Assembly (NCBI RefSeq): GCF_020404845.1
Contig: NZ_JAIOJZ010000030.1
Span: 1-64,000 of the forward strand
Source: Streptomyces hyderabadensis
Lineage (GTDB): Bacteria; Actinomycetota; Actinomycetes; Streptomycetales; Streptomycetaceae
Direction: 5' to 3'
DNA length: 64,000 bases
In this document: piece by piece, positions 7,081 through 25,013 of the stretch
Layout of the letters: the number at the start of each line of letters is the position of its first letter
Numbering within the stretch: position 1 is the stretch's first letter
The notes under the pieces: generated by a model
What the model was told of the DNA's origin: nothing
Seen by the model: the letters and a program-made list of their open reading frames with translations, nothing else
The model's database searches: none
Position numbers and translations under genes: made by a program

Positions 7081-7539
7081 TCAGGCGTAGTGGCGGTACA
7101 CGGCCTGGGCCACGCAGGCGGGCTTCTCACTGCCCTCGACCTCCACGGTGAAGGTCAGCGCCATCTGCACCCCGTTGCCCTTGACCGCGTCGACCGAGTC
7201 GACCGTGCCGTGCAGGCGGATCTTCGCGCCGACCGGCACGGGACTCGGGAAGCGCACCTTCTCCAGGCCGTAGTTGACACTCATGGAGATGCCGGAGATC
7301 TCCAGCAGGTCGCCGAACAGCGGGATGATCAGGGACAGGGTGAGGTAGCCGTGGGCGATGGGGCCCCCGAAGGGACCCTGCTGGGCCTTTACGGGATCGG
7401 TGTGGATCCACTGGTGGTCGTCGGTGGCGTCGGCGAAGGTGTTCACACGCTCCTGCGTGATCTCCAGCCAGTCGGTACGGCCGAGGTCGCGGCCGGCGAG
7501 GGAGACGAGGCCTTCGAGGCCCTGGGCGGTGGTGGTCAC
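7081..7539 (-). CDS. MaoC-family (R)-specific enoyl-CoA hydratase/dehydratase
   Basis: A 152-residue single hot-dog-fold hydratase acting on acyl-CoA thioesters. The hydratase-2 signature is present (FADATDDHQWIHTDP with the catalytic Asp/His, followed by GGPIAHGYLTLSL). The GTG start at 7539 overlaps the stop of the ligase gene by 4 bp, so the two are translationally coupled as the last two genes of a leftward four-gene operon. In that context it probably hydrates an enoyl-CoA made downstream of the ligase. Confidence 0.85.
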   Translation of the reverse strand: MTTTAQGLEGLVSLAGRDLGRTDWLEITQERVNTFADATDDHQWIHTDPVKAQQGPFGGPIAHGYLTLSLIIPLFGDLLEISGISMSVNYGLEKVRFPSPVPVGAKIRLHGTVDSVDAVKGNGVQMALTFTVEVEGSEKPACVAQAVYRHYA

Positions 7540-9115: not shown

Positions 9116-10003
9116 TCAGTTTTTGGTCAGGCCGAGCAGCCGGGCGGCGTTGTCCTTGAGGATCCTGGGCCGCACCTCGGGCTTGATGTCGAGCTTCTCG
9201 AAGTCGGCGAGCCAGCGGTCCGGGGTGATGACCGGGTAGTCGGAGCCGAAGAGCACCTTGTCCTTGAGCAGCGTGTTGGCGTACCGCACCAGCTGCGGCG
9301 GGAAGTACTTCGGGGACCAGCCCGACAGGTCGATGTACACATAGGGCTTGTGCGTGGCGACGGCCAGGGCCTCGTCCTGCCAGGGGAAGGACGGGTGAGC
9401 CAGGATGATCCGCAGTTCGGGGAAGTCCACGGCCACGTCGTCGACGAGCATGGGGTTGGAGTACTTCAGCCGGATGCCGCCGCCTCCGGGCACTCCGGCG
9501 CCGATCCCGGTCTGCCCGGTGTGGAAGAGCGCGGGCACACCGAGTTCCTCGATCGCCTCGTAGAGCGGGTAGGCCATCCGGTCGTCGGGGGAGAACGCCT
9601 GGATGCTGGGGTGGAACTTGAAGCCGCGCACCCCGTGCTCCTCGACCAGGCGGCGTGCCTCCCGCACCCCCGCACGGCCCTTGTGCGGGTCGACACTGGC
9701 GAACGGGACGAGTACGTCGGCGTGGGCGGCGCAGCTCTCGGCGACCTCCTCGTTGGCGATGCGCGGATGGCCGGTGGCGTGTTCGGCGTCCACGGTGAAC
9801 ACCACGGCGGCCATGTGCCGTTCCCGGTAGTACGCGGCCATCTCGTCGATGGTCGGCTGCCGGTGGCCGTGCGCCTTGAAGTACTCCTCGGAGGTCCCGA
9901 AGAGCTCCGGGCTCAGCGCGCCGTGTCCGGTACGGGAGATCTCCGCGTGGGTGTGGACGTCGATGGCGGTGAGGCTGTCGACATCGATGACCGGGTCGCT
10001 CAC
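9116..10003 (-). CDS. Amidohydrolase-2 family metal-dependent hydrolase/decarboxylase
   Basis: A TIM-barrel protein of 295 residues in the family that includes ACMSD and gamma-resorcylate decarboxylases. The metal-ligand motif IDVHTHAE lies near the N-terminus, with later strand motifs GFKFHPSIQAF, FHTGQTG, LAHPSFPW and FGSDYPV carrying the remaining His/Asp ligands. The GTG start at 10003 lies 1 bp after the SDR stop and has GGAGG 6 nt upstream. With a ligase and hydratase it suggests breakdown of an aromatic or dicarboxylic acid; whether it decarboxylates or hydrolyses cannot be read from the sequence. Confidence 0.82.
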   Translation of the reverse strand: MSDPVIDVDSLTAIDVHTHAEISRTGHGALSPELFGTSEEYFKAHGHRQPTIDEMAAYYRERHMAAVVFTVDAEHATGHPRIANEEVAESCAAHADVLVPFASVDPHKGRAGVREARRLVEEHGVRGFKFHPSIQAFSPDDRMAYPLYEAIEELGVPALFHTGQTGIGAGVPGGGGIRLKYSNPMLVDDVAVDFPELRIILAHPSFPWQDEALAVATHKPYVYIDLSGWSPKYFPPQLVRYANTLLKDKVLFGSDYPVITPDRWLADFEKLDIKPEVRPRILKDNAARLLGLTKN

Positions 10004-10004
10004 G

Positions 10005-10916
10005 TCAGGCCTCCGGCGCCTTGGGAGCCGGAATGCCGTACGTCTCGGGGTCGGCGCCGACCCCGGCGTGCCAGTGCTCGCCGATCGCGTCGGCGCTCCA
10101 GCCGCCGTCGGTGAGGGCGACCGCCTTCTCCTTGGGGTGGGCCCACAGGGCCAGCCGGTCGCCGCCGATGCCGATGGCCTGCCCGGTGACGTCCTTGGCG
10201 GCTTCCGAGGCGAGGAAGGTGATCAGGCCGGCCACGTCCTCGACGGTGCCGAGTCCCTCGTCCTTGCGCAGCCAGTCCGGCAGGGGTGCGCCGGTGCGCT
10301 CGGCCTCCTCGATGGCCGGGGCGAAGGCCGGGACGGTCTTGGTCATCTCGGTGGCGGCGACGGGGACGACCGCGTTGACGGTGATGCCCGCGCGGGCCAG
10401 CTCCAGCGCCCAGGTCCGGGCCATCGCCACGATGCCGGCCTTGGCGGCGGCGTAGTTGGTCTGGCCGAAGTTGCCGCGCTGGCCGGCGGGGGAGGAGATC
10501 AGGACCAGCCGTCCGCCCTCGCCCTGCTCGCGCATCCGCACCGCCGCGGCCCGGGCGCAGGTGAAGGTGCCGCGCAGGTGGACCTTGATCACGGAGTCGA
10601 AGTCGTCGTCCGTCATCTTCCACAGCACCCGGTCGCGGAGGATCCCGGCGTTGGTGACGAGGACGTCCAGCCGGCCGAACGTGCGCACCGCCGTGTCGGT
10701 GATCCGTTCGGCGGCCTCGCTGTCGCCCACGGCGGCCACGACTCCGGTGGCCCTGCCGCCGGCCGCGGTGATGGCGCCGACCGCCTCGTCGACCACGTCG
10801 GCGTCGACGTCGTTGACCACGACGGCGGCGCCCGCGGCGGCCAGGGCCCGGGCGTACGCGAGTCCCAGTCCGCGGCCGCTTCCGGTGACGACGGCGACCT
10901 TGCCCTGCAGCTCCAT
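10005..10916 (-). CDS. Short-chain dehydrogenase/reductase (FabG/MFE-2 type)
   Basis: A 303-residue NAD(P)-dependent oxidoreductase and the first gene of the leftward operon. It has the Rossmann motif VTGSGRGLGLAYA near the N-terminus, the NAG motif (VTNAGI), the catalytic Ser in VLISSPAGQ and the YxxxK pair in NYAAAKAG. An extension of about 60 residues after the SDR core is unusual for FabG and more like the dehydrogenase part of multifunctional beta-oxidation enzymes. The ATG at 10916 is closest to the Rossmann start. Expression is probably controlled by the divergent MarR gene through the palindromes at 10992 and 11033. Confidence 0.87.
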   Translation of the reverse strand: MELQGKVAVVTGSGRGLGLAYARALAAAGAAVVVNDVDADVVDEAVGAITAAGGRATGVVAAVGDSEAAERITDTAVRTFGRLDVLVTNAGILRDRVLWKMTDDDFDSVIKVHLRGTFTCARAAAVRMREQGEGGRLVLISSPAGQRGNFGQTNYAAAKAGIVAMARTWALELARAGITVNAVVPVAATEMTKTVPAFAPAIEEAERTGAPLPDWLRKDEGLGTVEDVAGLITFLASEAAKDVTGQAIGIGGDRLALWAHPKEKAVALTDGGWSADAIGEHWHAGVGADPETYGIPAPKAPEA

Positions 10917-11006: not shown

Positions 11007-11032
11007 GGTTGCTGGGTCCAGTGTTCTCATTC

Positions 11033-11103: not shown

Positions 11104-11568
11104 ATGAAGCGAGCGCCGGAGCGGTCCGTGGAGGGTGCCGGATCCGCGGCCGAAGCGGGGCCGTCGCTGCTCTACCTGCTCAAGCGGACCGAACTCGTGG
11201 TCCGCGCCCGCCTGGAGGAGTTGCTCAAGCCCGCGGGCGTCACCGCGCTGCAGTACACGGCGCTGACCGTGCTGGAGCGGCACGACGGCATCTCCGCCGC
11301 GCAGTTGGCCCGCGACTCGTTCGTCACGGCGCAGTCGATGGCGGACATGGTGCGCGCGCTGGAGAGCCGGGGCCTGGTGCGACGCGAGCCGAACCCGTCG
11401 AACCGGCGGGAGAAGGTGATCCGGCTCGCGGAAGCGGGACGGCGGCTGCTCGCCGACTACGCCGAGCCGGCCCGGCTGCTGGAGCGGCGGATGGTGGCGG
11501 ACCTCGGTCCCGCCGACGTCGAGCGGTTCCGTGAGGTCCTGAAGAGCGCCCACCGCGCACTGTCCTGA
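11104..11568 (+). CDS. MarR-family transcriptional regulator
   Basis: A 154-residue winged-helix regulator. The core runs from LLYLLKRTELVVRARLEELL through the recognition region (ISAAQLARDSFVTAQSMADMVRALESRGLVRR, in two parts) and the wing (NRREKVIRLAEAGRRLL). It is divergent from the SDR/amidohydrolase/ligase/MaoC operon, and two palindromes lie between them. It is therefore the likely repressor of that operon, released by an acid or CoA-ester ligand as in other aromatic-degradation MarR proteins. Confidence 0.88.
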   Translation: MKRAPERSVEGAGSAAEAGPSLLYLLKRTELVVRARLEELLKPAGVTALQYTALTVLERHDGISAAQLARDSFVTAQSMADMVRALESRGLVRREPNPSNRREKVIRLAEAGRRLLADYAEPARLLERRMVADLGPADVERFREVLKSAHRALS

Positions 11569-11626: not shown

Positions 11627-12634
11627 TCACGACCTCGAGCGCGTCACCTCGTCCAGCCGCCGTGCCGCCGTCGCCTGCTCGAACGGGGTGTCCCCGTGCG
11701 CCCTGCGGTCGCCCAGCGAGGCGTACAGGTCGGCCACGGCCGCGGAGTCGTGATGGGAGGCCAGTTCGGCCAGTTCGGGTGAGACCGTGCCGAGGATCTG
11801 CCGGAACCGCAGCTCGGCCAGCGGACCCAGGCGGTCGTAGATCTCGAGGAAGACCTGCTGGGCGCGCGGCCGGTCCCAGTCGGGCGGCAGCAGCTCGGCC
11901 GGCAGGTCCGGGTCGGTCTCGGGGAACCGCCGCCAGGCCACCCTCAGTTCGGTGCGGGTGCGCAGCGCCTCGGCCGGGCTGATCAGGCCCGCCGCGAGGC
12001 TCTTCAGCACGGGCTCGTAGCGTTCGGTGAAGGCGCGGTACTCCTGGCTCAGCGACGTCAGGTCGAACGCCGAGACCGGGTCGCCCCGGCGGGTGCCGCC
12101 GGGCACCGCGACGCAGCGCAGCACGGTCGCGGTCTCGATGCCGAGTTCCTGCAGCAGGGCCTGAGCCGGTGCGCCGAGGTCGTGCGGCGACACCCACACG
12201 CCGTCGTAGAGCGCCGCGAACCGCAGCAGCCGCAGCCGGGAGCGCAGGGCCGTGCGCAGGCCCCGGGCCTGCTCGGGGACGGAGAACGCGACGACCGTCC
12301 ACTGTCCGTCCCACTCGGGCGCGGTCGTGCCGAAGGTCAGCATCCGGTGCGTGCGTTCGACGATCACCTCGGAGGTGCGCGCCGGGATCCCGTACGCCGT
12401 GGTGCGTCCGCTGCGGGAGGTGTCCAGGAGCCCGCGGGCCACCAGCCGACGCATCGCGGCTCTGGCGCCGTCGGACGTCACGTCGAAGTCGGCCAGCAGT
12501 CTCACCAGGGCTGTGGCGGGGATGTGTTCGTCGCGCCAGTACCAGAAGTCGCCCAGCAGGGAGGTCAGCAGAAGCTGCGGCTCCGCCCCGTTCTGAGCCC
12601 GGGGCAGCTCGGTCTTCGGCAGGTCCTTCCCCAT
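11627..12634 (-). CDS. PaaX-family transcriptional regulator
   Basis: A 335-residue PaaX-type repressor. An N-terminal winged helix (LLTSLLGDFWYWRDEHIPATALVRLLADFDVTSDGARAAMRRLV, in parts) is followed by the family's central domain (DGQWTVVAFSVPEQARGLRTALRSRLRLLRF) and a C-terminal PaaX domain. Known PaaX proteins respond to phenylacetyl-CoA. The ATG at 12634 is preferred over one 12 codons upstream. It faces the long rightward operon across a 137-bp gap with a 9-bp inverted repeat, so that operon is its probable target. Confidence 0.88.
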   Translation of the reverse strand: MGKDLPKTELPRAQNGAEPQLLLTSLLGDFWYWRDEHIPATALVRLLADFDVTSDGARAAMRRLVARGLLDTSRSGRTTAYGIPARTSEVIVERTHRMLTFGTTAPEWDGQWTVVAFSVPEQARGLRTALRSRLRLLRFAALYDGVWVSPHDLGAPAQALLQELGIETATVLRCVAVPGGTRRGDPVSAFDLTSLSQEYRAFTERYEPVLKSLAAGLISPAEALRTRTELRVAWRRFPETDPDLPAELLPPDWDRPRAQQVFLEIYDRLGPLAELRFRQILGTVSPELAELASHHDSAAVADLYASLGDRRAHGDTPFEQATAARRLDEVTRSRS

Positions 12635-12713: not shown

Positions 12714-12771
12714 CGCTCGGCATCGATACCGACAATGATGCGGATCCTCTCCCATGCAAGGGAACACCTTC

Positions 12772-13695
12772 ATGCGCAACTTTCGAGGCCACCGTCGGTG
12801 GCGAACATGTTGGACCCTCACGACCGCACTCGTCTCCGTCACGGCCCTCGCCGGCTGCGCCGCCGACGAGGAGCAAGGCGTCTCCAAGCCCTCCATCCCC
12901 GAGGCGACCGCCCTCCACGACGCCCTGCCGCAGTCGGTCAAGGACGCCGGCGTCCTGCGGTTCGCGGGTGACTCGCACCCGCCCTTCCGCTCGGTCGGCG
13001 CCGACGGCTCCGTGACGGGCATCGACCAGGACCTGCAGGAAGCGCTCGGGCAGGTACTCGGAGTACGCACCGAGATCAAGATCGTGAACAACCTCCCCGC
13101 CGCGCTCCAGGGCATGCTCAGCGGGCGCTACAACGGCTTCAACGGGCCCGTGCAGGCCACCGCCGAACGCGAGCGCCAGTTCGACACCATCACCTGGATG
13201 ACCAGCCGCACGTCCTACGTCGTGCCCAAGGCGGGCAAGACCCGGATCGCCTCCGCCGCCGACCTGTGCGGCAAGCAGGTCGCCGTGGTGAAGTCGAGCA
13301 TCGTCGAGAGCCAGCTGGCCAAACTGTCCGCGTACTGCACCGACCAGGGCAAGCAGCCCACCCGGTCGATCGGACTCGACGACACCAACGCCACCCTCCT
13401 CGCCGCGCAGTCCGGCCGCGCCGACGCCGCGGGGATGACCCAGGCCGCCGCCATCGACGTCACCGACTCCCAGTCGGACAAGTACGACTACGTCACCCAG
13501 ACCGAGGAGCAGGGCGCCACCACCGATCACCTCGCCCTCCTCGTGCCCAAGGAGAGCAAGCTCGGCCCGGTGCTCCAGAAGGCCTTCCAGAAGCTCGTCG
13601 ACAACGGTGAGTACCGACGCGTCATGGAGCACTGGGGACTGAAGGACGTGATGGTCGACAAGCCCGTCCTCAACATCGCCGGCAAAGAGGGCTGA
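12772..13695 (+). CDS. ABC transporter substrate-binding lipoprotein (polar amino acid family)
   Basis: A family-3 solute-binding protein of about 307 residues, anchored outside the membrane. An Arg-rich n-region and hydrophobic segment end in the lipobox LAGC. The mature domain has the type-II binding-protein pattern (GVLRFAGDSHPPFRSVGADGSVTGIDQDL, in two parts; VAVVKSSIVESQLAKL; MEHWGL at the end). An AAGGGA ribosome site about 8 nt upstream favours ATG 12772 over ATG 12754. It opens an operon of overlapping genes and should deliver its ligand to the permease that follows 3 bp downstream. Confidence 0.88.
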   Translation: MRNFRGHRRWRTCWTLTTALVSVTALAGCAADEEQGVSKPSIPEATALHDALPQSVKDAGVLRFAGDSHPPFRSVGADGSVTGIDQDLQEALGQVLGVRTEIKIVNNLPAALQGMLSGRYNGFNGPVQATAERERQFDTITWMTSRTSYVVPKAGKTRIASAADLCGKQVAVVKSSIVESQLAKLSAYCTDQGKQPTRSIGLDDTNATLLAAQSGRADAAGMTQAAAIDVTDSQSDKYDYVTQTEEQGATTDHLALLVPKESKLGPVLQKAFQKLVDNGEYRRVMEHWGLKDVMVDKPVLNIAGKEG

Positions 13696-13698
13696 ACC

Positions 13699-14625
13699 GT
13701 GGCCGCACCCATCCCACTGACGGAGCGCAAGCACTCCACCGACCCGAAGACCGACGACGTCGCCCTGTCCAAACGGCGCGTGCGGCCCTGGCGGGTGCTG
13801 GCCGGCGCGGTACTCGCGCTCGTCGCCGTGCTGCTCGTCCACTTCCTGGTGACCAACCCGCGCCTGGAATGGGACGTCGTCGCGGAGTACCTGTTCGAGC
13901 CCTCGGTGCTCTCCGGACTCGGCACCACGGTGTGGCTCGCCGTCGCGGCCACCGTCATCGGTGCCGTCGTCGGCGCGATCCTCGCCGCGGCGCAGATGTC
14001 CCCCTTCCCGCCGGTCCGCTGGGCGGCCACGCTCTACATCGGCGTGTTCCGCGGCATCCCGCCCCTGGTGCAGCTCATCTTCTGGTTCAACCTCGCCTAC
14101 CTCCTGCCGCGCATCTCCCTCGGCATCCCCTTCGGCCCGGAGTTCGCCTCCTGGGACGCCAACGAGGTGATCACGCCGGTCACGGCCGCCGTCATCGGAC
14201 TGTCGCTGGTCGAGTCCGCCTACATGGCGGAGATCATCCGTGGGGGACTGCTGGGCGTGGAGCAGGGACAGCGTGACGCGGCCCGCGCCATGGGCTTCAC
14301 CCCGGGCCAGACCTTCTTCCGGGTCGTGCTCCCGCAGGCGATGCGCGTCATCATCCCGCCCGGCGGCAGCCAGTTCATCAGTGTGCTCAAGGGGACCGCG
14401 CTGGTCTCGGTGATCGCCATGGCCGACCTGCTGCACTCGGTCCAGGTCGTCTACAACCGCACCTACGAGATCGTCCCCATGCTCATCGTGGCCTGTCTCT
14501 GGTACCTCGCCGTGGTCACCCTGTTCACCGTCGGACAGCGCTGGCTGGAACGGCACTTCTCCCGGGGCCACACCAGCGGCCCCGCACGACGCCCCAAGAA
14601 GACCACGGACGGAGCCTCCGCATGA
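13699..14625 (+). CDS. Amino-acid-type ABC transporter permease
   Basis: A HisM/GlnP-type inner-membrane permease of 308 residues. One membrane segment lies near residues 33-55, with the permease core after it. The EAA loop that contacts the ATPase is clear ([25 protein letters not shown], in two parts). Only one permease gene is present, so the protein probably works as a homodimer. The GTG start lies 3 bp after the binding-protein stop, and the stop overlaps the ATPase start as ATGA. Confidence 0.9.
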
Positions 14626-15422
14626 CCACTGCACCCGCCCTGCGCGTGCGGGGCGTACGCAAGAACTTCGGCGACCACGCCGCCCTCGACGGGGTCGACC
14701 TCGACGTCGCCGACGGAGAGGTCGTCACGATCATCGGGCCCTCCGGCTCCGGCAAGTCCACCCTCATCCGGTGCGTGCACCAGCTGGAGACCATCGACTC
14801 CGGTGCGATCTACCTGGACGGCGAACTGCTCGGCCACGAACGGCACCGCGGCACCCTGCGTCCGCTCAGTGCCCGCCGGGTCGCCGCCCAGCGCGGCCGG
14901 ATGAGCATGGTCTTCCAGCAGTTCCACCTCATCCCGCACTTCACCGTGCTCCGCAACATCACCGAGGCCCCGGTGCGCGTCCACGGCAGGCCCCGTGAGG
15001 AGGCCGAGGCCGAGGCCCGCGACCTGCTCGCACGCGTCGGCCTCGCCGACCGCGCCGCCCACTACCCGCGCCAGCTCTCCGGAGGCCAGCAGCAGCGGGT
15101 GGCGATCGCACGGGCCGTCGCGGCCCGGCCCCGCGTCATGCTCTTCGACGAACCCACCAGTGCCCTCGACCCCGAACTCGTCGACGAGGTACTCGCCGTC
15201 ATGCGCAACCTCGCCACCGAGGGCATGACGATGGTCGTGGTGACCCACGAGATCGCCTTCGCCCGCGAGGTCGCCGACCGCTGCGTCTTCATGGAGGCGG
15301 GCCGCATCGTCGAGAGCGGAACACCCGACGAGATGCTCACCAACCCCCGCACCGCGCGCCTGCGTTCGTTCCTCGCCCGGCACCGCGACACCCACACCAC
15401 CCCCCAGGAGCCCGTCTCGTGA
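14622..15422 (+). CDS. Amino-acid-type ABC transporter ATP-binding protein (GlnQ-like)
   Basis: A 266-residue ABC ATPase that powers the permease. It has Walker A (GPSGSGKST), the Q-loop ([17 protein letters not shown]), the signature [15 protein letters not shown], Walker B ([16 protein letters not shown]) and the H-loop ([11 protein letters not shown]). All catalytic motifs are intact. It overlaps its neighbours by 4 bp at both ends, so it is translationally coupled to the permease and to the CapA-like gene. Confidence 0.93.
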
Positions 15423-16561
15423 TCACCGTCGCCTCGGTCGGAGACCTCATCCTCGACGAGCCCGACCCCGCCTCGTTCCTGGCGCCCTCGGCACCCCTGC
15501 TGAGCGCCGCGGACGTCACCGTCGGGCACGTCGAGGTCCCGCACTCGACCACCACCGTCCAGCAGAGCACCGACGTACCCGCACCCCCGGCCGATCCCGC
15601 CGCCCTTACCGCGCTCGCCGAGGCCGGCTTCGACATCGTCACACTCGCCGGAAACCACATCTACGACGCGGGCGACACCGGCGTCACCGACACCGTCGCG
15701 CACGCCCGGCGGGCCGGCCTGGCCACGGTCGGTGCCGGAACGAACCTGGACGAGGCCCGCACCCCGGCCGTGGTCGAGCGCGGCGGGCTGCGCATCGGCG
15801 TCCTGTCCTACAACTGCGTCGGCCCGCGCGAGTCCTGGGCCACCTCCCGCAAGGCGGGCTGCGCCTACGTCCACGTCCTCACCCACTACGAACTCGACCA
15901 CGCCAGCCCGGGCGGCCCGCCGAAGACCTACACCTTCGCCGACCCGGACAGCATCACCAGCCTCCAGACCGACGTGGCGGCCCTGCGCGAGCGCGCCGAC
16001 GTCGTCCTCGTCGGCCTCCACAAGGGCGTCGGCCACACCCCCGCCGCCGTCGCCATGTACGAGTCGCCGGTGGCCCGCGCCGCCATCGACGCCGGTGCCG
16101 ACGCCGTCTTCGGCCACCACGCCCACATCATGCGCGGCATCGAGACCTACCGGGGCCGCCCGATCTTCCACGGCCTCGGCAACTTCGTCACCGTGACCCG
16201 CGCGCTGACCCCGGACGCGAGCAGCCGCTCCAGCGCCGAGCTGACCGCATGGGCCCGCCGCCGCAAGGAGCTGTACGGCTTCGTCCCCGACCCCGGCATG
16301 CCCGCCTACCCCTTCCACCCGGAGAGCCGCAACACCGCGATCGCCGTCTGCCGCTTCGACGGCGAAGGCCTCGTCGAAGCGGGCTTCGAGCCCTGCTGGA
16401 TCGACGACGCGGGACGCCCGGTGCCCTGCGGCGACACCGACGAGGGCCGACGGGTCACCGGCTACATCGAGCACATCACCCGCACCGCGGGCCTGAACGG
16501 CCGGTTCGTCCGCGAGGACGGCCGCGTACGGATCGACCTGCACACCGAGAGGGCATCATGA
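15419..16561 (+). CDS. CapA-family protein (metallophosphatase-like)
   Basis: A 380-residue CapA/PgsA-type protein with a calcineurin-like fold. It keeps the family's metal-site motifs ([71 protein letters not shown] in parts). CapA is best known from poly-gamma-glutamate synthesis, but no PgsB/PgsC homologue is here and the protein lacks a signal peptide or membrane segment. Inside an import and CoA-activation operon it more likely acts as a soluble hydrolase on a pathway intermediate. The GTG start and the stop both overlap neighbouring genes by 4 bp. Confidence 0.85.
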
Positions 16562-17796
16562 GCGACCAGCCACTGGCCGGACGGACCGTCATCGACCTGA
16601 CCACCGCGCTGGCCGGCCCCTACGCCACCCTGCTCCTCGCCGGACTCGGCGCCACCGTCATCAAGGTCGAGAACCCGGCCACCGGCGGCGACTCCTCCCG
16701 CAACAACGCCCCCTACGTCGGCGGCGACGGCCTCTCCGTGACCCGGCGCGGCCCCGACGACATGTCGGTCTCGATGCTCGCCCGCGGCCGCAACAAGCTC
16801 AGCGTCACCCTCAACCTCAAGGACGAGCGCTCCCGGCGGGTCTTCGCGGACCTCGTGCGCGACGCCGACATCCTCGTGGAGAACTACAGCCCCGGCGTCA
16901 CCGGCCGCCTCGGCATCGACTACGCCACCGTCCACGAGCTCAACCCGCGGCTCGTCTACACGTCCATCACCGGCTTCGGCAGCCAGGGCGGACCCGGCTC
17001 CGGCAAGGCGATGGACTCCATCATCCAGGCACTGTCCGGCGTCATGCTCACCGCGGGCGAGCCGGACGAGGGACCGGTACGCTTCGGACTTCCCGTCGGC
17101 GACATGCTCGCGCCGCTGTTCGCGGTGATAGGCACCCTGTCCGCACTCATGCAGGCCGACCAGAGCGGCGAGGGACAGCACGTCGACGTCTCCATGCTCG
17201 GCGCGCTCACCTCCCTGGTGGCGTGCGAGCCCTTCGACGCCTTCGCCGCGGTCGGCATGCCGCAGCGCACCGGCGCCATGGTGCCCCGCCTCGCCCCCTT
17301 CGGCATCCTGCCCACCGCCGACGGCCACATCGCGCTGTCCGCACCCACCGACGCCTTCGCCCACGGCGTACTGCGCGCCGTCGGCCGCCCCGACCTGATC
17401 GACGACGCCCGCTTCCACAGCCGCGACCAGCGGGTCCGCCACGCCGACGAGATCCACGCCCTGATCCGGGAGTGGAGCAGCACCCGCCCCACCGCCGAGG
17501 CGCTCGACGCGTTCACCGAGCACGGCGTGCCGGCCGCCGAGGTGCGCGACCCCAGGGACGCCGTACACGACCCGCTCGTGCTGCAGCGCGAGGAGGTCGT
17601 CCCCGTCACCCACCCGACGCACGGCCCCGTCGAGGGCCTGGCCACCACCGGCGTGCCCATCCGCTTCTCCGCCGCCCGCGCGGGCTTCGACCGGCCCGCC
17701 CCGGCGCTCGGCGAGCACAACGACGCGGTGTACCGCGAGAAGCTCGGCTACAGCCCCGAAGAACTCGCCGAGCTGGCCGCCGAGTCGGTGATCTGA
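16558..17796 (+). CDS. CaiB/BaiF family (type III) CoA-transferase
   Basis: A 412-residue class III CoA-transferase that would move CoA between carboxylic acids. The N-terminal family motif is LAGRTVIDLTTALAGPYATLLLAGLGATVIKVENP (in parts), followed by NKLSVTLNLKDERSRRVFADLV, the catalytic Asp region (GLPVGDMLAPLFAVIGTL) and the C-terminal EHGVPAAEVRD. It precedes two 2-hydroxyacyl-CoA dehydratase-like subunits. The same trio (FldA/FldB/FldC or HadA/B/C) makes and dehydrates 2-hydroxyacyl-CoA esters in anaerobes, which supports a shared pathway here. Confidence 0.9.
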   Translation: MSDQPLAGRTVIDLTTALAGPYATLLLAGLGATVIKVENPATGGDSSRNNAPYVGGDGLSVTRRGPDDMSVSMLARGRNKLSVTLNLKDERSRRVFADLVRDADILVENYSPGVTGRLGIDYATVHELNPRLVYTSITGFGSQGGPGSGKAMDSIIQALSGVMLTAGEPDEGPVRFGLPVGDMLAPLFAVIGTLSALMQADQSGEGQHVDVSMLGALTSLVACEPFDAFAAVGMPQRTGAMVPRLAPFGILPTADGHIALSAPTDAFAHGVLRAVGRPDLIDDARFHSRDQRVRHADEIHALIREWSSTRPTAEALDAFTEHGVPAAEVRDPRDAVHDPLVLQREEVVPVTHPTHGPVEGLATTGVPIRFSAARAGFDRPAPALGEHNDAVYREKLGYSPEELAELAAESVI

Positions 17797-17855
17797 TCCC
17801 GCCGCACCCCTCTCGCCGCTTCGCCGCACACCCGTACCACCTGGAGGAATCCCCC

Positions 17856-19007
17856 ATGTCCGCTGCCCTCGCGCGGCTCACCTCCCACGGCACCGACCGC
17901 CGCGCGGCCGCCGACGCGTTCCGAACACGCCACCACGGCGGGGTGATCGGCTACGTCGGCGCCGACGTCCCCGTCGAGTACCTCACCGCGGCCGGCCTGC
18001 TGCCCCTGCGCCTGTCCGGCGACCCGGGCACGCCGAGCACGGACGGCGACCGCTACCTCGGCACCGGCCTGGACCCGGCGGCCCGATCCGTCCTCACCCG
18101 GCTGCTCGCAGGCGACTTCGGCCCGCTGGACGGCATCGTCGTCTCACGCGACAGCGAGGCCTCCCTGCGGCTGTTCTACGCACTGCGCGAACTGCGCCGG
18201 GTGGACCCCGCCCTGGCCCTGCCGCCGGTGCACCTGGTCGACGTACTGCACCTGCCGCACCGCACGACCACCCGCTACGTGCGCGCCAAGCTCGGCCAGT
18301 TGCGCGCCACCGTGGAGACCTGGGCCGGCCGTTCGATCGACGACCGGGCACTCGCCGACGCCATCGGCGCCCACGACCGGCTCCGGGAACTGCTCACCCG
18401 CATCTCCGCCCTGCGCCGGTCGCAGCCGGCCCGCCTCACCGGAACCCAGACGCTCACCGTCGTGGCCGCGACCACCGCACTGCCCGTCGAGCGTGCCACC
18501 GCGCTGCTCGAAGAACTGCTCACCGAGGCGGACCACCTGCCCGAACACGAAGGACTCAGAGTGTTCCTCACCGGAAGCCCGCACGACACGGGCCACGTCT
18601 ACACCGCCCTGGAGGACAGCGGCCTGCTCGTCGTCGGTGAGGACCACGACTGGGGCGACCTGCTCTCCCTGCGCCGGACCGCGGCCCCCACCGAGGCCGC
18701 CCTCGCCGAGCGCTATCAGTACAACGGGCCCTCCGCACCCCGGGCCTCGATCCGCGCCCGCGCCGCACACACCCGGCGTGCGGCGCGGGAGTGCGGTGCG
18801 CAGGCACTGGTGAGCTACGCCCGGGTGCACGACGACGCCCCGGGCTGGGACTACCCGGCCCAGCGGGAGGCGACCGGACTGCCGTCCGTGCTGCTGAGCC
18901 GGCAGCCGTACGGCGCGCTCGGCGACGAGGCGGCCGAAGCACTGGCGGGACTGGTGCGGACGACGCAGCCGACCGGGCCGCGTGCCCGCGCGGAGGCGGC
19001 CCGATGA
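17856..19007 (+). CDS. 2-hydroxyacyl-CoA dehydratase/benzoyl-CoA reductase-like subunit lacking Fe-S cysteines
   Basis: A 383-residue protein with the HgdA/HgdB-type layout: the N-terminal family motif VPVEYLTAAGLLPLRLSGD, a central helical region and a final Rossmann-like part. Characterised family members hold a [4Fe-4S] cluster with three Cys. At the positions I would align there is LDPAARS (usually a Cys-Pro pair), VVSRDSEAS (usually Cys-Asp) and ARVHDDAPGWDYP (usually Phe-Cys-Asp). The only Cys in the protein (ARECGAQ) is elsewhere. An AGGAGG-like site precedes ATG 17856. The stop overlaps the next gene by 4 bp. Family membership is fairly secure; dehydratase chemistry is doubtful. Confidence 0.75.
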   Translation: MSAALARLTSHGTDRRAAADAFRTRHHGGVIGYVGADVPVEYLTAAGLLPLRLSGDPGTPSTDGDRYLGTGLDPAARSVLTRLLAGDFGPLDGIVVSRDSEASLRLFYALRELRRVDPALALPPVHLVDVLHLPHRTTTRYVRAKLGQLRATVETWAGRSIDDRALADAIGAHDRLRELLTRISALRRSQPARLTGTQTLTVVAATTALPVERATALLEELLTEADHLPEHEGLRVFLTGSPHDTGHVYTALEDSGLLVVGEDHDWGDLLSLRRTAAPTEAALAERYQYNGPSAPRASIRARAAHTRRAARECGAQALVSYARVHDDAPGWDYPAQREATGLPSVLLSRQPYGALGDEAAEALAGLVRTTQPTGPRARAEAAR

Positions 19008-20257
19008 GCGCCGCCCGGCTGGCCTCCGCGTCGGCGGCGACCGCCCACCAGCGGCAGTGGTTCGCCGACCTGAGGGAGGAAGCGGCGGACGGCGGGCCCC
19101 TCGCGCTGGTCAACGCCGACGCCCCGCAGGAGATCTTCCGCGCCATGGGCATCCCGTACGTCGTCAACCAGTGGTGGTCCTCGATCGTCACGGCCAAACG
19201 ACGTGCCCAGGACTACCTCGGACTGCTGCGCGAGCGCGGCTACCCCGACGACAGCGAGCAGTACAGCTCCATCCCCCTGGCCTCGGCCTTCGACCCCGAC
19301 CCGGCGAACGCGCCCTGGGGCGGCCTGCCCCGGCCCACCATCGTCCTCGCGGAGACCACGGGCGACGCCTCCCGGAAGATCTTCGACATCTGGGACACCC
19401 AGCCCGGCGTCTCCTTCTACCCCCTGGAGAGCGCCGCCGAGAACGACGTCCCCGCGCGCTGGTGGGAACTGATGCCGCGCGACTGGGAACGGGCCGTCGG
19501 GAGCGACCGCCTGGACCTGATGACCGGCGAACTCGAAGGCCTGATCAGGTTCCTGGAGCAGACCACCGGCCGGGTGTTCTCCGAGACCCGCTTCGCCGAG
19601 GTCATGGCCCTCGTCAACGAGCAGCAGGAGTGGAACCGCCGCACCCGCGACCTGATCGCCAGGGCACGCCCCTGCCCGCTGCCGGTCAACGACAGCATCC
19701 CCAGCGTGATGATCCCGCAGTGGCACCGCGGCACCCCCTGGGCCCGGGACGCCGCCCGCGCCTTCCACGACGAGGTCGCCGAGCGCGTGTCCACCGGCAC
19801 GTCCGTCTGCCCGCAGGAACGGGCCAGGCTCATGTGGATCGGCCGCGGGCTCTGGTTCGACCTCGACTTCTACCGGCGCTTCGAGGAGAGCCACGGCGCG
19901 GTGTTCGTCTGGTCCATGTACCTCGCGATCGCCGCCGACGGCTACCTGCGCTACGGCGGCGACCCGCTGCGCGCCCTCGCCGCCCGCTTCGCCGCCTTCT
20001 CCGACCAGCTCTACACCCCGCCGTGGTCGGCCGAGTGGTACGTGAAGGAGGCCCGCCACCACGGCGTCGACGGCGTGGTGCACCTGGTCTCCGAGGACGC
20101 CCGGGGCAGCTACTTCACCACCCGTGCCCTGGAGGCGGCCGGCATCCCGGTGCTCGAACTGCACGCCGACAACGTGGACGCCCGCAGCGCCGACGGCGAC
20201 GCCCTCACCCGCACCGTCGGCGACTGGCTCGACCGGCACGTCCTCGCCGGTGACTGA
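19004..20257 (+). CDS. Second 2-hydroxyacyl-CoA dehydratase-like subunit, also lacking cluster cysteines
   Basis: A 417-residue partner of the preceding subunit. It carries the family opening (ALVNADAPQEIFRAMGIPYVVNQWW, in parts) and closing (VDGVVHLVSEDARGS, AAGIPVLELHADNVDAR) motifs. Where cluster-binding Cys residues would be expected there is SEQYSSIPL, ETTGDASRKIF and SEDARGS. Its two Cys residues (RPCPLP, TSVCPQE) are in unrelated positions. No ATP-dependent activator ([4Fe-4S] archerase) gene is in the window. The pair may bind CoA esters and do redox-independent chemistry. The MFS gene overlaps its end by 8 bp. Confidence 0.72.
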   Translation: MSAARLASASAATAHQRQWFADLREEAADGGPLALVNADAPQEIFRAMGIPYVVNQWWSSIVTAKRRAQDYLGLLRERGYPDDSEQYSSIPLASAFDPDPANAPWGGLPRPTIVLAETTGDASRKIFDIWDTQPGVSFYPLESAAENDVPARWWELMPRDWERAVGSDRLDLMTGELEGLIRFLEQTTGRVFSETRFAEVMALVNEQQEWNRRTRDLIARARPCPLPVNDSIPSVMIPQWHRGTPWARDAARAFHDEVAERVSTGTSVCPQERARLMWIGRGLWFDLDFYRRFEESHGAVFVWSMYLAIAADGYLRYGGDPLRALAARFAAFSDQLYTPPWSAEWYVKEARHHGVDGVVHLVSEDARGSYFTTRALEAAGIPVLELHADNVDARSADGDALTRTVGDWLDRHVLAGD

Positions 20258-21722
20258 CCCGGCGCCCGCCTTGCGGACGGTGCTCTCCGGGGCGCTGGCC
20301 GCCCTGTTCGCCGGCTCGCTCACCAACACGATCGTCGGCATCGCGCTGCCGACCATCGCCGGGGAACTGGGCGGCCAGGACCAGGTGCCGTGGGTGGCGA
20401 GCGCCGCGCTGCTCACCATGACCGTGGCGACGCCGCTGTGGGGCAAGGCCGCCGACCGCAAGGGGCCCAGGCCCTTGCTCATCGCCGCGCTGGGCGTCTT
20501 CGTGGCCGGCTCGCTGGTGGCCGGCTGCGCCCTGTCGATGAGTGCGCTCATCGCCGGACGCGCACTGCAGGGCGCCGGCGCGGGCGGCGTCCTCGCGCTC
20601 ACCAACGCCCTGGTCGCGGGGCTCGTCCCGCCGCGCCAACGCGGCCTCTACACCGGCTGGTTCGGTGTGGCCTTCGGCACCGCATCCGTCGCCGGGCCCC
20701 TCGTCGGCGGGCTCCTCGTCGGTCTGCCTGGCCTCGGCTGGCGCTGGTGCTTCCTCGGCGTCGTCCCCGTCGCGCTGGCCGCCGCCCTGCTCGTCCGGCT
20801 CGCACCGCACCGCACCCCCGAGGCTCCGCGCGGCGGCGTCGACGTCCTCGGCGGCACCCTGCTCACCGCCTGCGCGTCCGGGCTCGTCCTGCTGCTCTCC
20901 GCCGGCGGCCGGGCGTGGCCGTGGCCGTCCTGGCCCACGGCCGCGCTCGGCGCCGGCGTGCTCGTGCTGGCGGTGGCCTGCGTGCGCCGCGAACGCCGCG
21001 CCGCGGACCCGATCCTGCCGCCCCGGCTCTTCGCCCGGCCCGGCCTCGCCGTGGCCTGCGCGACGAGCTTCCTGGTCGGCGCGGTCATGTTCGGCGGCGT
21101 CATCTACCTGCCCCAGTACCTCCAGGTGGTGCGGGGCCACGGCGCGACCGAGGCCGGGCTGCTCATGCTGCCCCAGGTCGGCACCATGATCGCGGCCTCC
21201 ACGCTCTCCGGATTCCTGATCAACAGGACCGGCCGCTGGAAGGTGTTCCCCGTCGTGGGCTGCGCCCTGGTGACAGCCGGCGCCGTCCTCCTGTCACCGA
21301 TCGCGCCGGACACCTCCCCGTGGTGGCTCGCCGCGGCCATGGCGGTCCTCGGCGTGGGAACCGGGCTGACCCAGCAGGTGCTGGTGCTGGTCGCGCAGAC
21401 CTCCGTCGGCACCGGCGACGTCGGGGTGGCGGGCGCGGCGGCCACCTTCAGCCGCACGCTCGGCGGAGCGGTCGGCGTGGCCGCCTTCGGCGCGATGATC
21501 TCGGCGCGGCTGCGCTCCGGGACGCCGCCCGGCCAGGAACCGGGCAGCCTGCTCGGGACCCCGGAGCGGGTGGCCGAACTGCCCGCCGAGGTCGCCGACT
21601 CCGTACGGGCCGCCTACACCGCCGGACTCGCGTCCGTGTTCCTCGTGGCCGTACCACTCGCAGTGGCCGCCCTCGCCGCCGTACTCCTGCTCCGCGAGAC
21701 CCCGCTCGACACACGCGGGTAG
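20250..21722 (+). CDS. MFS transporter, DHA2/EmrB-QacA type (14 TM)
   Basis: A 490-residue drug:H+ antiporter-like protein. It shows the motif-A loop (LWGKAADRKGPRPLL), motif C-like Gly-rich helices (FGTASVAGPLVGGLLVG) and enough hydrophobic segments for 14 membrane spans. The GTG at 20250 overlaps the dehydratase-like gene by 8 bp, making it the last gene of the operon. It may export a product or toxic intermediate, or take up the substrate. A strong terminator follows 15 bp after the stop. Confidence 0.87.
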   Translation: MTDPAPALRTVLSGALAALFAGSLTNTIVGIALPTIAGELGGQDQVPWVASAALLTMTVATPLWGKAADRKGPRPLLIAALGVFVAGSLVAGCALSMSALIAGRALQGAGAGGVLALTNALVAGLVPPRQRGLYTGWFGVAFGTASVAGPLVGGLLVGLPGLGWRWCFLGVVPVALAAALLVRLAPHRTPEAPRGGVDVLGGTLLTACASGLVLLLSAGGRAWPWPSWPTAALGAGVLVLAVACVRRERRAADPILPPRLFARPGLAVACATSFLVGAVMFGGVIYLPQYLQVVRGHGATEAGLLMLPQVGTMIAASTLSGFLINRTGRWKVFPVVGCALVTAGAVLLSPIAPDTSPWWLAAAMAVLGVGTGLTQQVLVLVAQTSVGTGDVGVAGAAATFSRTLGGAVGVAAFGAMISARLRSGTPPGQEPGSLLGTPERVAELPAEVADSVRAAYTAGLASVFLVAVPLAVAALAAVLLLRETPLDTRG

Positions 21723-21789: not shown

Positions 21790-23205
21790 TCAGCCGAGGT
21801 AGGGGCGGTTGAACACGGGCGGGTGGTAGTGCACGTAGCGCCCGGGTGCCTCCCCGGCCCGGCCGGCCGACCGGTTCAGGCCCTCCGGGGTGGCCGAGCC
21901 GGACCAGTGCCCGGTCGTCAGCCGCTCCGTCATCGCCGTGATCGCCGCGACCTGCTCGCCGGGCGTGAAGCCGCAGTGCCCGACCGACCGCACGTAACTC
22001 TGCCGCAGCAGCGCCGCCTTCCCGGCCCTACGCGCCGCCTCCCCGTACGACTGCTGCTGGGCGACGGTGGAGATCTGGTCGCCGATCGGATTGACCGTGA
22101 GCACCGGGATCTCCAGGTCACCGTCGAAGACGATGCCCTTCTCCAGGTACGCCACCGCCGCCGGGTCGGCCCGGATCCTCGGCGCCCGGGCCAGGACCCC
22201 GAGGTCGGCGCGGACGTCCAGGCCCGCACGGGAGTACATCTCCCGGACCGTCCGCCGCTGTTCAGGGCTCGCCGACGCGAACTGACGAGCGTAGTCGACG
22301 CCTGTGTTCCACGAGGGGTTGCCGCCCGCCAGGGTCTCGATGGACCGCCGACTGCTCATCGCCTGGCCGATGTACGGCTGCGCGCCGCCGGCCAGGGCCA
22401 GGTACATGCCCTCCTGCACGGCGTCCGCGTCGCCGGGACCGGGCATCGGCGTCGGCGCGCCGTCGGCGTCCAGGCCCCAGCCCGGCAACTGCCCGATCGC
22501 CGCGGCCAGTGCGATCCGGGCCCGGCCCGCAGGGGTCTGCTGGGCGGAGGCCAGCGCCGACCTCCAGCGCGCGGTGGCCTGTTCGGTGTCGGCGGGAATT
22601 CCCGTGACCGGGAGCGTGCTGTCGGGGAAGAGCAGGTTCTTCAGCGTGAAGACGGTGTCCAGCTTCTGGTTCCACTGCCCCACGGCGCCGCCGAGACCGC
22701 CGCAGAAGGGCACGGCGGCGTCGAAGACGTCAGGGTGGACCTGCGCGGCACCCGCCGACACGAAACCGCCCATCGAGCGCCCGGAGGCGACGGCCCACCG
22801 GGGACGGCCGACGCTCTCCTCGAACCGCCCGAGCGCCGAAGCCTGGTTGTCGATGGCCTCGGCGATGCGCCAGCCCGTGACGTCGCGGGTGGTGCCGCCC
22901 ACGGCATAACCCCGCCCGGTGAGTTCCGCGGTGAGCGGCTCCCCGGCGGGGCGGCTCACGAAGTCGAGGTCGACGATCACCACGCCGTTCCAGCGGTCGG
23001 GGACCACGAACCGGTACGGAGTGCCGTCGGCCAACTGCCCACCCGTACAGGTCACGTCGGCGGGACTCCCCACGGGACACGGCGCGCCGCCGCGCGGCCC
23101 GGCCTCCGCCGTCGGGGCGGCGAGCGCGGCCACGCCGACAGCCGCCAGGCACACGGCGACAGCGTCGCGCAGCCTTCTCGTTCCCATGGTCCTCCTCGTC
23201 GTCAT
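21790..23205 (-). CDS. Secreted alpha/beta hydrolase (serine esterase/peptidase-like)
   Basis: An exported hydrolase of about 471 residues. A basic n-region (RRLRD), a hydrophobic core and an AxA-type site (PTAEAG) form a Sec signal. The mature protein has the nucleophile elbow ASGRSMGGFVSAG and a late His (VGHCGFTPGEQ) in the position of the catalytic base. Six Cys residues (for example GAPCPVG, DVTCTG, VPFCGG) suggest disulfides outside the cell. The start is ambiguous: ATG 23205 has GAGGA at 5 nt and ATG 23187 has a site at only 3 nt. It lies 23 bp after another secreted hydrolase and is probably cotranscribed. Confidence 0.7.
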   Translation of the reverse strand: MTTRRTMGTRRLRDAVAVCLAAVGVAALAAPTAEAGPRGGAPCPVGSPADVTCTGGQLADGTPYRFVVPDRWNGVVIVDLDFVSRPAGEPLTAELTGRGYAVGGTTRDVTGWRIAEAIDNQASALGRFEESVGRPRWAVASGRSMGGFVSAGAAQVHPDVFDAAVPFCGGLGGAVGQWNQKLDTVFTLKNLLFPDSTLPVTGIPADTEQATARWRSALASAQQTPAGRARIALAAAIGQLPGWGLDADGAPTPMPGPGDADAVQEGMYLALAGGAQPYIGQAMSSRRSIETLAGGNPSWNTGVDYARQFASASPEQRRTVREMYSRAGLDVRADLGVLARAPRIRADPAAVAYLEKGIVFDGDLEIPVLTVNPIGDQISTVAQQQSYGEAARRAGKAALLRQSYVRSVGHCGFTPGEQVAAITAMTERLTTGHWSGSATPEGLNRSAGRAGEAPGRYVHYHPPVFNRPYLG

Positions 23206-23228: not shown

Positions 23229-25013
23229 TCACCGCGCGATCGGCAGGGTGACGGACGATGCGTGCGCGGGCTCGCGGTGCACGGTGTACACGGGGGCCGG
23301 GCTCAGCTCGGTGCGGTCGCTCTCGCGCACATCGGCCCCGGTGACGGTCACCCGCAGCCGGTGCCCGGCGGGCACCACCGAGGACAGCGGCAGCATGTCG
23401 AAGTCGACGCGTTCCGCGCGGCCCTCGGGCATGGGTTCGGCGTCGCCCGCGTTGCCGCGGTGCCAGGGCGTGCCAAGCACGTCGTAGGGCGCGCGCTGCG
23501 TGCTGCGCAGTGCCAGGCGGATCCGACCGTCGGTGAGGATGCGCACGGTGCCGTCCGGGGCGACGTCGGAGAGGTAGGCGAAGACATTGCCGTCGGGTGC
23601 GGTGGAGGACAGGTGCAGCGAGACCTCGGGGTGGCCGGTGAGTTCGACGTCGTCCCGCAGGGGAGCCGTGGTGTAGGTCAGCCCCTTCTCGTCCTGCGGG
23701 CAGGTCTGGGCGAGCCCGACCGGCTCGGGGCAGCTCACCGAGTAGTCGATCCGGTAGGTGTCACCGGCGCCGTGGCCGCGTGGCCGTGAGCGGTCCAGCG
23801 TGCCGTCGTTGACCGAGCCGACGGTGCCGCTGCTGCCGCCGTCCAGGTAGTAGCGGGTCTGGCGGGCACGCGGGTTCGGCGGCCACTGCCGGGCGTCCCG
23901 CCACTGTCCCGTGCCGTCGGACGAGCCGGTGTAGTAGTGCACCGGCGGCTCCTGCATGATGCCGTTGTCGACGCCCTTGAGCCAGTAGTCGAAGAACCGG
24001 TGCCGCTCGGCGACGATGTCGAAGCCCTCGCTGCCGCAGTGCGGCCACGGGCCGACGAGGACCTTGTGCGGGTTCGACAAGGTCGCCGCGCTGACCAGAC
24101 TCTCCTTGCGGAAGTCGTCGTCCCAGCCGTCGAAGCTGTAGACGGGGACGCCGGAGCGCTCGATCGCGTCCTTGTAGGTGGCGACGCTGTACTCGTGCCA
24201 GGGCCGAGTACCCACCGATGCGACCTCGCTGTCCCGGTAGGGGGCCGCCTGCCACATGTCCTTCAGCGAAGTGTTCGCCTGGTGTTCCGCCACCGCCTGA
24301 CGCAGCAGCGAGCCGTCGCCGTCCGCGTCGACCGGCAGGTTGCGCAGGTCCTCTTCACGCGTGCGGTTGGGACCGGCCCCCCAGTTGGCCCTGATCCCGC
24401 CCCGCTGGAAGGCGTCGTACTTGTGGAAGGAGTAGTTGCCAGCGAAGACGGCCTCGAGATGGGGAGCCCCCACGGTCGCCGCCTGCATCGCCGCGTCGCC
24501 CGTGTTGGAACAGCCGAACACACCGACGTGGCCGTCGCTCCAGGACTGAGCGGCCAGCCACTCGGTGACGTCGTAGGCGTCGGACGCCTCCGTGCGGGAG
24601 TGATAGCCCGTCATGGTGCCGAAGGAGGCGCCGTTGCCCCGGCGGTCGACGAACGCCACCGTGTAGCCGTATCTGGTGAGTTCGGCCATGCCGCTGGTGA
24701 CCCCGCGCAGGCTGACCGTGCCGTCCTCGGCGCGTGAGGCCCTGCTGAGCTGGTGCTCCCACACGACGGGGAAGGGACGCTCGACCGCCTTGCCGTCCAC
24801 GGCGGGACGGTAGAGGTCGACGGCGAGTCGGGTGCCGTCCCGTGTGGGCAGGTACTGCGAGGTGCGCACCCACTCGTCGTAGAGCACGGGGGTGTACCCC
24901 GCGTACTCACCGGGGCGGGAGACTCGTTCGTGTGTGCCGGCCACGGCCGGCGCTCCGGCAGCGGTGGTGACCAGGAGAGCCGTGAGTACGGGCGTCAACC
25001 GTTTCAGTCTCAT
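23229..25013 (-). CDS. Secreted CocE/NonD-family hydrolase (X-Pro dipeptidyl-peptidase S15 type)
   Basis: An exported 594-residue serine hydrolase. The signal peptide (MRLKRLTPVLTALLVTTAAG) is followed by the S15 domain: RDGTRLAVDLYRP, the oxyanion region YTVAFVDRRGNGAS, and a nucleophile region GVFGCSNTGDAAM in which the usual GxSYxG is written GCSNTG. Next come the HCGSEG region and the C-terminal jelly-roll of CocE proteins (FDMLPLSSVVPAGHRLRVTVTG). Cocaine-esterase and X-Pro peptidase relatives share this layout; the substrate is unknown. ATG 25013 begins the signal peptide directly. Confidence 0.85.
   Translation of the reverse strand: MRLKRLTPVLTALLVTTAAGAPAVAGTHERVSRPGEYAGYTPVLYDEWVRTSQYLPTRDGTRLAVDLYRPAVDGKAVERPFPVVWEHQLSRASRAEDGTVSLRGVTSGMAELTRYGYTVAFVDRRGNGASFGTMTGYHSRTEASDAYDVTEWLAAQSWSDGHVGVFGCSNTGDAAMQAATVGAPHLEAVFAGNYSFHKYDAFQRGGIRANWGAGPNRTREEDLRNLPVDADGDGSLLRQAVAEHQANTSLKDMWQAAPYRDSEVASVGTRPWHEYSVATYKDAIERSGVPVYSFDGWDDDFRKESLVSAATLSNPHKVLVGPWPHCGSEGFDIVAERHRFFDYWLKGVDNGIMQEPPVHYYTGSSDGTGQWRDARQWPPNPRARQTRYYLDGGSSGTVGSVNDGTLDRSRPRGHGAGDTYRIDYSVSCPEPVGLAQTCPQDEKGLTYTTAPLRDDVELTGHPEVSLHLSSTAPDGNVFAYLSDVAPDGTVRILTDGRIRLALRSTQRAPYDVLGTPWHRGNAGDAEPMPEGRAERVDFDMLPLSSVVPAGHRLRVTVTGADVRESDRTELSPAPVYTVHREPAHASSVTLPIAR

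Follow-up and report, generated by a model that had tools for sequence, protein, structure and literature searches.

A cluster-free pair of 2-hydroxyacyl-CoA dehydratase-like subunits in Streptomyces hyderabadensis and its possible link to hydroxycinnamate ester catabolism

In the gene sets of phenyllactate dehydratase (FldABC) and of HadABC, a CoA-transferase, which is HadA in the case of HadBC, is followed by two dehydratase-like subunits. The benzoyl-CoA reductases BzdNO and MbdNO are cluster-bearing and reduce the aromatic ring in an anaerobic pathway, which sets them apart from the pair described here. This pair is encoded at 17856-20257 of the window, the 64,000-nucleotide stretch of Streptomyces hyderabadensis DNA under analysis (contig NZ_JAIOJZ010000030.1), and likewise follows a CoA-transferase. 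Its membership of the dehydratase family and the loss of the clusters are both well supported. Oxygen-sensitive clusters are essential to those 2-hydroxyacyl-CoA dehydratases and class I benzoyl-CoA reductases that have been studied to date (PMC11574389). That source gives HadBC, the (R)-2-hydroxyisocaproyl-CoA dehydratase, three cysteines per cluster and an activase, whereas the pair of the window has cysteine at none of the six ligand positions and no activase; it also explains the need for a radical in the usual family reaction by the low acidity of the beta proton. A fold, a pairing and a CoA-transferase kept without clusters or activator would mean that this scaffold can work on CoA esters by other chemistry. 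No title or abstract among the full-text literature matches listed describes a cluster-free branch; subscription papers were mostly outside the reach of that search.

The beta subunit, a HadC/BzdN-like HGD-D protein of 383 amino acids (17856..19007, plus strand), and the alpha subunit, a HadB/BzdO-like HGD-D protein of 417 amino acids (19004..20257, plus strand), match PF06050 with 133 and 151 bits (cut-off 28.4) and form the sole PF06050 pair of their genome. Among the NCBIfam models, those for the double-cubane protein, BzdN, BcrC and HadC come nearest to beta and those for BzdO and HadB nearest to alpha, but no score comes close to its equivalog cut-off. The nearest solved sequences, and the top fold matches, are benzoyl-CoA reductase subunits of the BzdNO and MbdNO type (8s02, 9g87, 9gai; E values 9e-13 and 2e-11). 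AlphaFold2 (AF2) models, built from the window and related-locus sequences, reached a mean pLDDT of 94.8 for beta and 91.4 for alpha. The best PDB matches of the beta model are BzdN and HadC (TMq 0.85 to BzdN 8s02_B, 0.85-0.87 to HadC), those of the alpha model MbdO and HadB (TMq 0.84 to HadB 3o3m_A), with a range of 0.80-0.87 over the best matches of both subunits; compared with HadBC (3o3m, 3o3n), the subunit folds agree at up to 0.84 for alpha and 0.87 for beta. Family matches and modelled fold bear out the original prediction, made from the sequence alone, that two dehydratase-like subunits are encoded here.

Ligand columns were placed by profile alignments to the solved HadB and HadC chains and by alignments with canonical pairs. 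We take the aligned HadBC cysteines to be the cluster ligands, which agrees with their invariance in canonical pairs. In beta, the three HadC cysteines fall on D73 in GLDPAARS (18072..18074), S100 in SRDSEAS (18153..18155) and D326 in VHDDAP (18831..18833). In alpha, the three HadB cysteines fall on E85 in SEQYSS (19256..19258), G120 in TTGDAS (19361..19366 together with D121) and A366 in SEDARGS (20099..20101); all six sites are on the plus strand. The second alpha column is uncertain by one residue, as alignment with canonical actinomycete pairs places the cysteine at D121. The six motifs quoted in the prediction (the first as LDPAARS) do stand at the ligand columns, and no alignment gave three cysteine ligands to either subunit of the window. 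The pair's only cysteines (beta 313, alpha 224 and alpha 269) lie neither at nor beside a ligand column, so that retention of a cluster through shifted cysteines is ruled out; moreover, the window has cysteine at none of the near-invariant canonical cysteine columns (those where at most one canonical row lacks cysteine; seven in beta and nine in alpha).

Relatives were found in a genome collection via two subfamily peptide patterns, and the best 80 of the 330 detected (loci L014-L093) were compared. They are close kin by design, having been chosen for likeness to the window, and some of their flanks end at contig edges. Column counts cover 84 alphas and 81 betas, the latter from the window, L007, L008, L010 and 77 of the 80 loci; L064 (a fragment of 175 amino acids) was dropped, L068 and L077 gave no beta match, and L011-L013, which duplicate L063, L083 and L090, were omitted. 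At the first beta motif, aspartate is found in 78 sequences, proline in two and glutamate in one, and at the third all 81 have aspartate. Position 100, in the second motif, is cysteine in 69 betas, serine in nine (window included), aspartate in two and threonine in one. The first alpha motif has glutamate (69), cysteine (2) or another residue (13); the second has glycine (81), cysteine (2) or alanine (1) beside a D121 common to all 84; the third never has cysteine. The only alphas to keep cysteines, at two positions each, are those of the sphingomonads L007 and L008, in which the third motif has asparagine. All three are gone from the other 82 alphas; most betas keep one. The predicted loss of the ligand cysteines therefore stands for the window and fails for the beta family as a whole, of which 69 members keep the cysteine at position 100. 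Judged by the near-identical state across all these alphas and betas, the losses are old. The serine of the window at position 100 is probably a recent change, the close Streptomyces relative L014 having cysteine there like most of the family. The sphingomonad betas (L007:11943-12824; L008:11973-12857) are annotated as hypothetical, have much of their middle part absent and are missed by PF06050, which has one match per plasmid.

The original prediction had found no activator in the window, and a search with TIGR00241, counting matches above its cut-off, extends this to the whole genome: none is encoded elsewhere, and hence none just outside the window either. Among 36 other genomes with the pair, taken from the 80 loci, 33 have no activase above the cut-off, two of these 33 giving short matches of 24 bits. 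The three with an activase are Prauserella flavalba, Amycolatopsis acididurans and Rhodococcus jostii, all known as aerobes, as are the hosts of the cluster-free pair. In each of them an additional PF06050 pair (two in R. jostii) adjoins the activase, and all four additional pairs (L132, L133, L134, L135) are canonical and keep six cysteines. Where a genome without activase has extra pairs (Nocardia, Actinomadura, Actinoallomurus), these too have lost the clusters, and the window pair is their nearest kin. The three genomes that hold both kinds of pair thus offer a clean comparison. No activase homologue was found in the 80 loci. The 30 short loci of canonical single-chain members (L094-L123) include 25 that have one, and further homologues stand beside the pairs of L009, L124, L125 and L127, the source of the queries. 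It is conceivable that a metal cluster, possibly serving as an electron carrier, is still held by aspartates and, in most relatives, Cys100 of beta: two of the three beta ligand positions are nearly always aspartate, the third is mostly cysteine, and aspartate ligands of [4Fe-4S] clusters exist. The lack of cysteine at all three sites of nearly every alpha, the want of an activase in those 33 genomes and the absence of Cys100 from the window itself make this very unlikely.

Besides 16 alphas and 16 betas, the tree takes in ten members of canonical pairs, drawn from six sources, and two single-chain proteins; it was rooted at its midpoint, contains one long branch and includes no benzoyl-CoA reductase. 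The alphas form one clade (support 100/100) and the betas another (100/99), with few canonical rows in the tree, and the clade of cluster-free homologues that had been foreseen is found for each subunit. The four canonical alphas did not group together. Both groups share their outer order, with Rhizobium and the sphingomonads outermost, then Chloroflexota, then the actinomycetes; their inner forks differ or are weak. The alpha gene is present in four of 100 genomes of relatives and in six of 394 genomes of the class (own genome included in both), a scattered distribution as expected for an accessory catabolic trait.

Since the former ligands are lost and beta evolves faster than alpha, the pair might be taken for a non-functional relic retained by linkage. 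Against nine relatives, alpha has a dN/dS of 0.13-0.22 and beta one of 0.22-0.39, well under 1 in every comparison, and open frames of the pair occur among the 330 relatives also in Chloroflexota and Pseudomonadota. This explanation is extremely improbable, and decay of the pair is ruled out by dN/dS and conservation. A non-catalytic complex that binds or senses CoA esters, or helps the CoA-transferase, would agree with the missing ligands and with the presence of a CaiB gene beside the pair in 79 of the 80 loci. Yet 97% or more of the 84 alphas agree at 99 columns, many of them Trp, Glu, Asp, Arg or His, and regulators of the PaaX-like and MarR types are already in place; a mere binding role is unlikely. 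Conservation favours an enzyme, and the different reaction that the prediction had offered beside mere binding would be the better reading.

The former cluster pockets may indicate what kind of enzyme. In beta, carboxylates occupy former ligand sites (D73, D326), and alpha has carboxylates at such sites or close by (E85 in most members, D121, D365); this arrangement would lend itself to metal binding or to the work of an acid-base pair. With the clusters gone, the pair must use a substrate with an acidic proton or a helped leaving group, or else carry out another reaction.

The pair belongs to an operon at 12754-21722, plus strand, whose genes overlap or are closely spaced; the widest gap, of 59 bases, lies 5' of beta, and the ATG of alpha overlaps the TGA of beta. 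Its order is an ATP-binding cassette (ABC) substrate-binding protein (12754..13695, family match to SBP_bac_3), an ABC permease (13699..14625) and an ABC ATPase (14622..15422), both types being read by eye from the sequence, a CapA/PGA_cap protein with an MslH-like metallo-fold (15419..16561, PF09587), a CaiB family III CoA-transferase (16558..17796, PF02515, 372 bits), beta, alpha and a major facilitator superfamily (MFS) transporter (20280..21722, PF07690). A PaaX-like regulator (11630..12634, minus strand) diverges from the operon; it has PaaX domains and scores 131 bits with the PaaX model, under the cut-off of 265. Two hydrolases with N-termini that look signal-like by eye follow on the minus strand: AHsec (21793..23034), with no Pfam match at 1e-3, and a member of the CocE/NonD family (23232..24944, TIGR00976, 287 bits). 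The set shares with FldABC and HadABC the CoA-transferase followed by two dehydratase-like subunits, and differs from them in having no FldI/HadI-type activator and in the addition of CapA, a transporter and esterases.

On the other side, at 7084-11568, lies a cassette of Cou type, its gene names given by analogy: a MaoC-like hydratase (7084..7539, PF01575), an acyl-CoA ligase (7539..9104, PF00501), a CouO-like amidohydrolase-superfamily protein (9119..10003, PF04909) and a short-chain dehydrogenase/reductase (SDR; 10008..10916, PF13561/PF00106), all on the minus strand, and a CouR-like MarR regulator (11104..11568, plus strand, assigned by PDB matches). The SDR is CouN-like by position, diverging from the MarR gene as couN does from couR. 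In gene make-up, this cassette matches the cou genes of R. jostii RHA1. The available part of PMC4737184 reports that in RHA1 CouL forms the CoA thioester, that CouO, of the amidohydrolase superfamily, takes the last step and that couR and couN are divergent; it mentions no dehydratase-like pair, in which RHA1 would differ from the window. In the PDB, the MarR regulator matches Rv2887 first, with HcaR and CouR (3fm5, 5cyv, 6c28) at ranks 3 and 5-7 of 39. As evidence for the pathway this likeness is weak, because Rv2887 ranks first and MarR proteins resemble one another.

At least two of the five Cou-type genes, at 45% identity or more, are present in 25 of the 80 loci, on either side and either strand and in several arrangements; in Microbispora and Nonomuraea kin they lie downstream of alpha on the same strand. 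Ech homologues occur in L025, L026, L030, L033 and Croceicoccus, and the four of these five that were scanned, three from the numbered loci and that of Croceicoccus, pass the equivalog cut-off of 276 bits for p-hydroxycinnamoyl-CoA hydratase/lyase with scores of 440-453. Genes of p-hydroxycinnamoyl-CoA metabolism, Cou-type or Ech, thus stand beside the pair in 28 loci (the 25 together with L025, L026 and L033), and also in the window. In three genomes (G497, which carries L025, G513 and G525), a distance of 10-15 kb separates the pair from a CouO homologue, which thus falls just beyond the locus. Of the 80 genomes with the pair, 77 have a CouO homologue (21 in the locus, then 12 of 12 and 44 of 47). 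In an even sample of 394 genomes of the class, searched alike for both proteins, alpha matched in six and CouO in 66; CouO was present in all six genomes with the pair and in 60 of the 388 without (Fisher 1.8e-5; with the own genome omitted, five of five and 1.1e-4; both tests ignore relatedness). In two of the other five class genomes with the pair (G617, G578), the CouO homologue is about 1 kb from alpha. A tannase/feruloyl esterase gene lies near the operon of Novosphingobium ES2-1. This link to p-hydroxycinnamate catabolism goes beyond anything claimed in the original prediction.

Partner counts over the 80 loci come from tblastn maps at E 1e-8 and a coverage of 35%. Distant homologues are counted in, among them certain SDR, ATPase, MFS and PaaX matches of about 30% identity. 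Besides CaiB, the 80 loci hold beta (78), CapA (69), the PaaX-like regulator (64), substrate-binding protein and permease (56 each), AHsec (34), MFS (21, a few near 30%) and CocE (16); relatives of the ABC ATPase, many of them distant, are found in 76. The expectation that the homologues always travel with CaiB, CapA and the ABC set was accordingly right for CaiB in all but one locus, largely so for CapA, and wrong for the transporter: some loci have other ABC types, and sphingomonads have a tripartite ATP-independent periplasmic (TRAP) system of DctP type. A fixed CaiB-CapA-ABC unit is ruled out by this variation and by the 11 loci without CapA; in seven of the nine corresponding genomes that were checked, no CapA above 60% identity exists anywhere. 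Asp153 of CaiB, which we take to be catalytic, is present in 79 of 80 rows, the remaining row being gapped. The best solved relative of CaiB is succinate-HMG (hydroxymethylglutarate) CoA-transferase, and succinate-glutarate and mesaconate CoA-transferases are also near.

CapA aligns with MslH, the tryptophan epimerase of a lasso peptide, an enzyme that acts at a carbon adjoining a carboxylate (PMC10406935). Its score with the MslH model, 103.1 bits, remains below the equivalog cut-off of 700, so that CapA is rejected as an established epimerase. E39, N79-H80, D83, H201 and H236 of CapA correspond to Glu44, Asn87-His88, Asp91, His259 and His295 of MslH, numbered by eye, and His261 has no match in place; most positions of the metal site and the His/Asp dyad are conserved in 69-71 of 71 rows (rows of 55% identity or less excluded). 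In Rhizobium SSA_523 (L010:3909-17698), the pair is surrounded by two genes each of MmgE/PrpD and CaiB type and by one of the MR/MLE enolase superfamily, and a search limited to the plasmid of the pair found no CapA above 31% identity. MR/MLE enzymes act on carbons next to carboxylates. It can fairly be supposed that one step of the operon takes place at the alpha carbon of an acid, because MslH and MR/MLE enzymes work at such carbons.

Taken together, these associations make it quite possible, if still tentative, that the pair is a non-radical CoA-ester lyase or dehydratase in the catabolism of plant hydroxycinnamate esters, a testable class of substrates. Extracellular esterases, if the signal-like N-termini do direct export, would cleave the ester; the acid half would be imported through the ABC or TRAP system, acted on by CapA or, in Rhizobium, by the enolase-superfamily protein, and converted by CaiB into a CoA thioester, which the pair would eliminate or isomerise. 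The aromatic half would enter the Cou or Ech pathway of p-hydroxycinnamoyl-CoA. The pair itself would be a heterodimer derived from 2-hydroxyacyl-CoA dehydratases by loss of both [4Fe-4S] clusters and of the ATP-driven activator. Polar acid-base chemistry is probable; a divalent metal or a Cys/Asp pair might take part in it where carboxylates line the former cluster pockets. Candidate substrates are hydroxyaryl-lactates, which would lead straight to p-hydroxycinnamoyl-CoA, and hydroxy-polyacids, suggested by the relatives of CaiB and the MmgE/PrpD neighbours.

Several observations weigh against this lyase or dehydratase in ester catabolism. The canonical pairs L126 and L128 also have no activase within about 7 kb, and local absence alone therefore proves little. 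The aspartate pair of beta is broken in sphingomonads (D73 to proline) and in Rhizobium (glutamate), which makes a strict metal site doubtful, and Ser100 of the window departs from the Asp-Cys-Asp pattern of beta. By these searches, 52 of the 80 loci have no p-hydroxycinnamoyl-CoA genes within their reach, and Virgisporangium aliadipatigenens, a Georgenia metagenome-assembled genome (MAG) and a Chloroflexi MAG have no CouO homologue at 1e-90. The statistical association takes no account of relatedness, and the 80 genomes were selected for their likeness to the window. Finally, the nearest solved relative of CaiB acts, by its name, on dicarboxylates, and MmgE/PrpD genes lie near relatives of the pair, so that an aliphatic polyacid is indicated at least as much as an aromatic one.

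The pair may accordingly handle the CoA ester of an aliphatic hydroxy-di- or tricarboxylate, for example a malate-, tartrate- or isocitrate-type ester half, with Cou and Ech alone taking the aromatic half; elimination would be easy with the hydroxyl beta to the thioester. The three dicarboxylate-type relatives of CaiB, the DctP-type TRAP system, the MmgE/PrpD genes and the 3-isopropylmalate dehydratase genes that adjoin a distant CapA homologue all point this way. The PaaX-like regulators, by analogy alone, suggest an aryl-CoA effector, and among solved chains alpha and beta are nearest, weakly, to benzoyl-CoA reductase subunits; the aliphatic reading is doubtful, though it deserves serious attention. 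The aromatic version, in which the pair would be a p-hydroxyphenyllactyl-CoA dehydratase, or a similar enzyme, that tolerates oxygen, has no cluster and feeds the Cou or Ech pathway, is decidedly unlikely. CaiB would then charge a hydroxyaryl-lactate released from, for instance, rosmarinic acid or another ester of this kind, and the alpha-hydroxyl would leave without a ketyl radical, aided by the para-phenol and the carboxylates in the ligand places, to give p-hydroxycinnamoyl-CoA; if true, the pair would be an aerobic counterpart to FldABC. No bacterial enzymes for rosmarinic acid are among the literature matches listed.

Loci related to that of the window differ in further genes. A P450-like family occurs in 20 of the compared loci, with and without CapA; two copies in L072 are confirmed by Pfam, and two are annotated in sphingomonads. 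The CapA-less loci L075, L079, L045, L049 and L032 have one to three P450-like genes, recognised through clustering and visual inspection, beside the pair, where the ABC transporter is also of another kind. In L129, L130, L131 and L141, other CapA homologues belong to catabolic sets that include genes for MmgE/PrpD, for 3-isopropylmalate dehydratase or for tricarboxylate transport. A relative of AHsec at about 40% identity in L079 narrowly passes the Peptidase_S9 cut-off and narrowly misses that of the tannase-like DUF6351, and the CocE hydrolase is also found in sphingomonad operons. The CouO-like protein of the window is 89-90% identical to those of L054, L056, L060-L062 and L067, from Microbispora and Nonomuraea kin, at about 70% identity for alpha; since CouO-like identity exceeds that of alpha, this hints that the Cou cassette may have been transferred separately from the pair.

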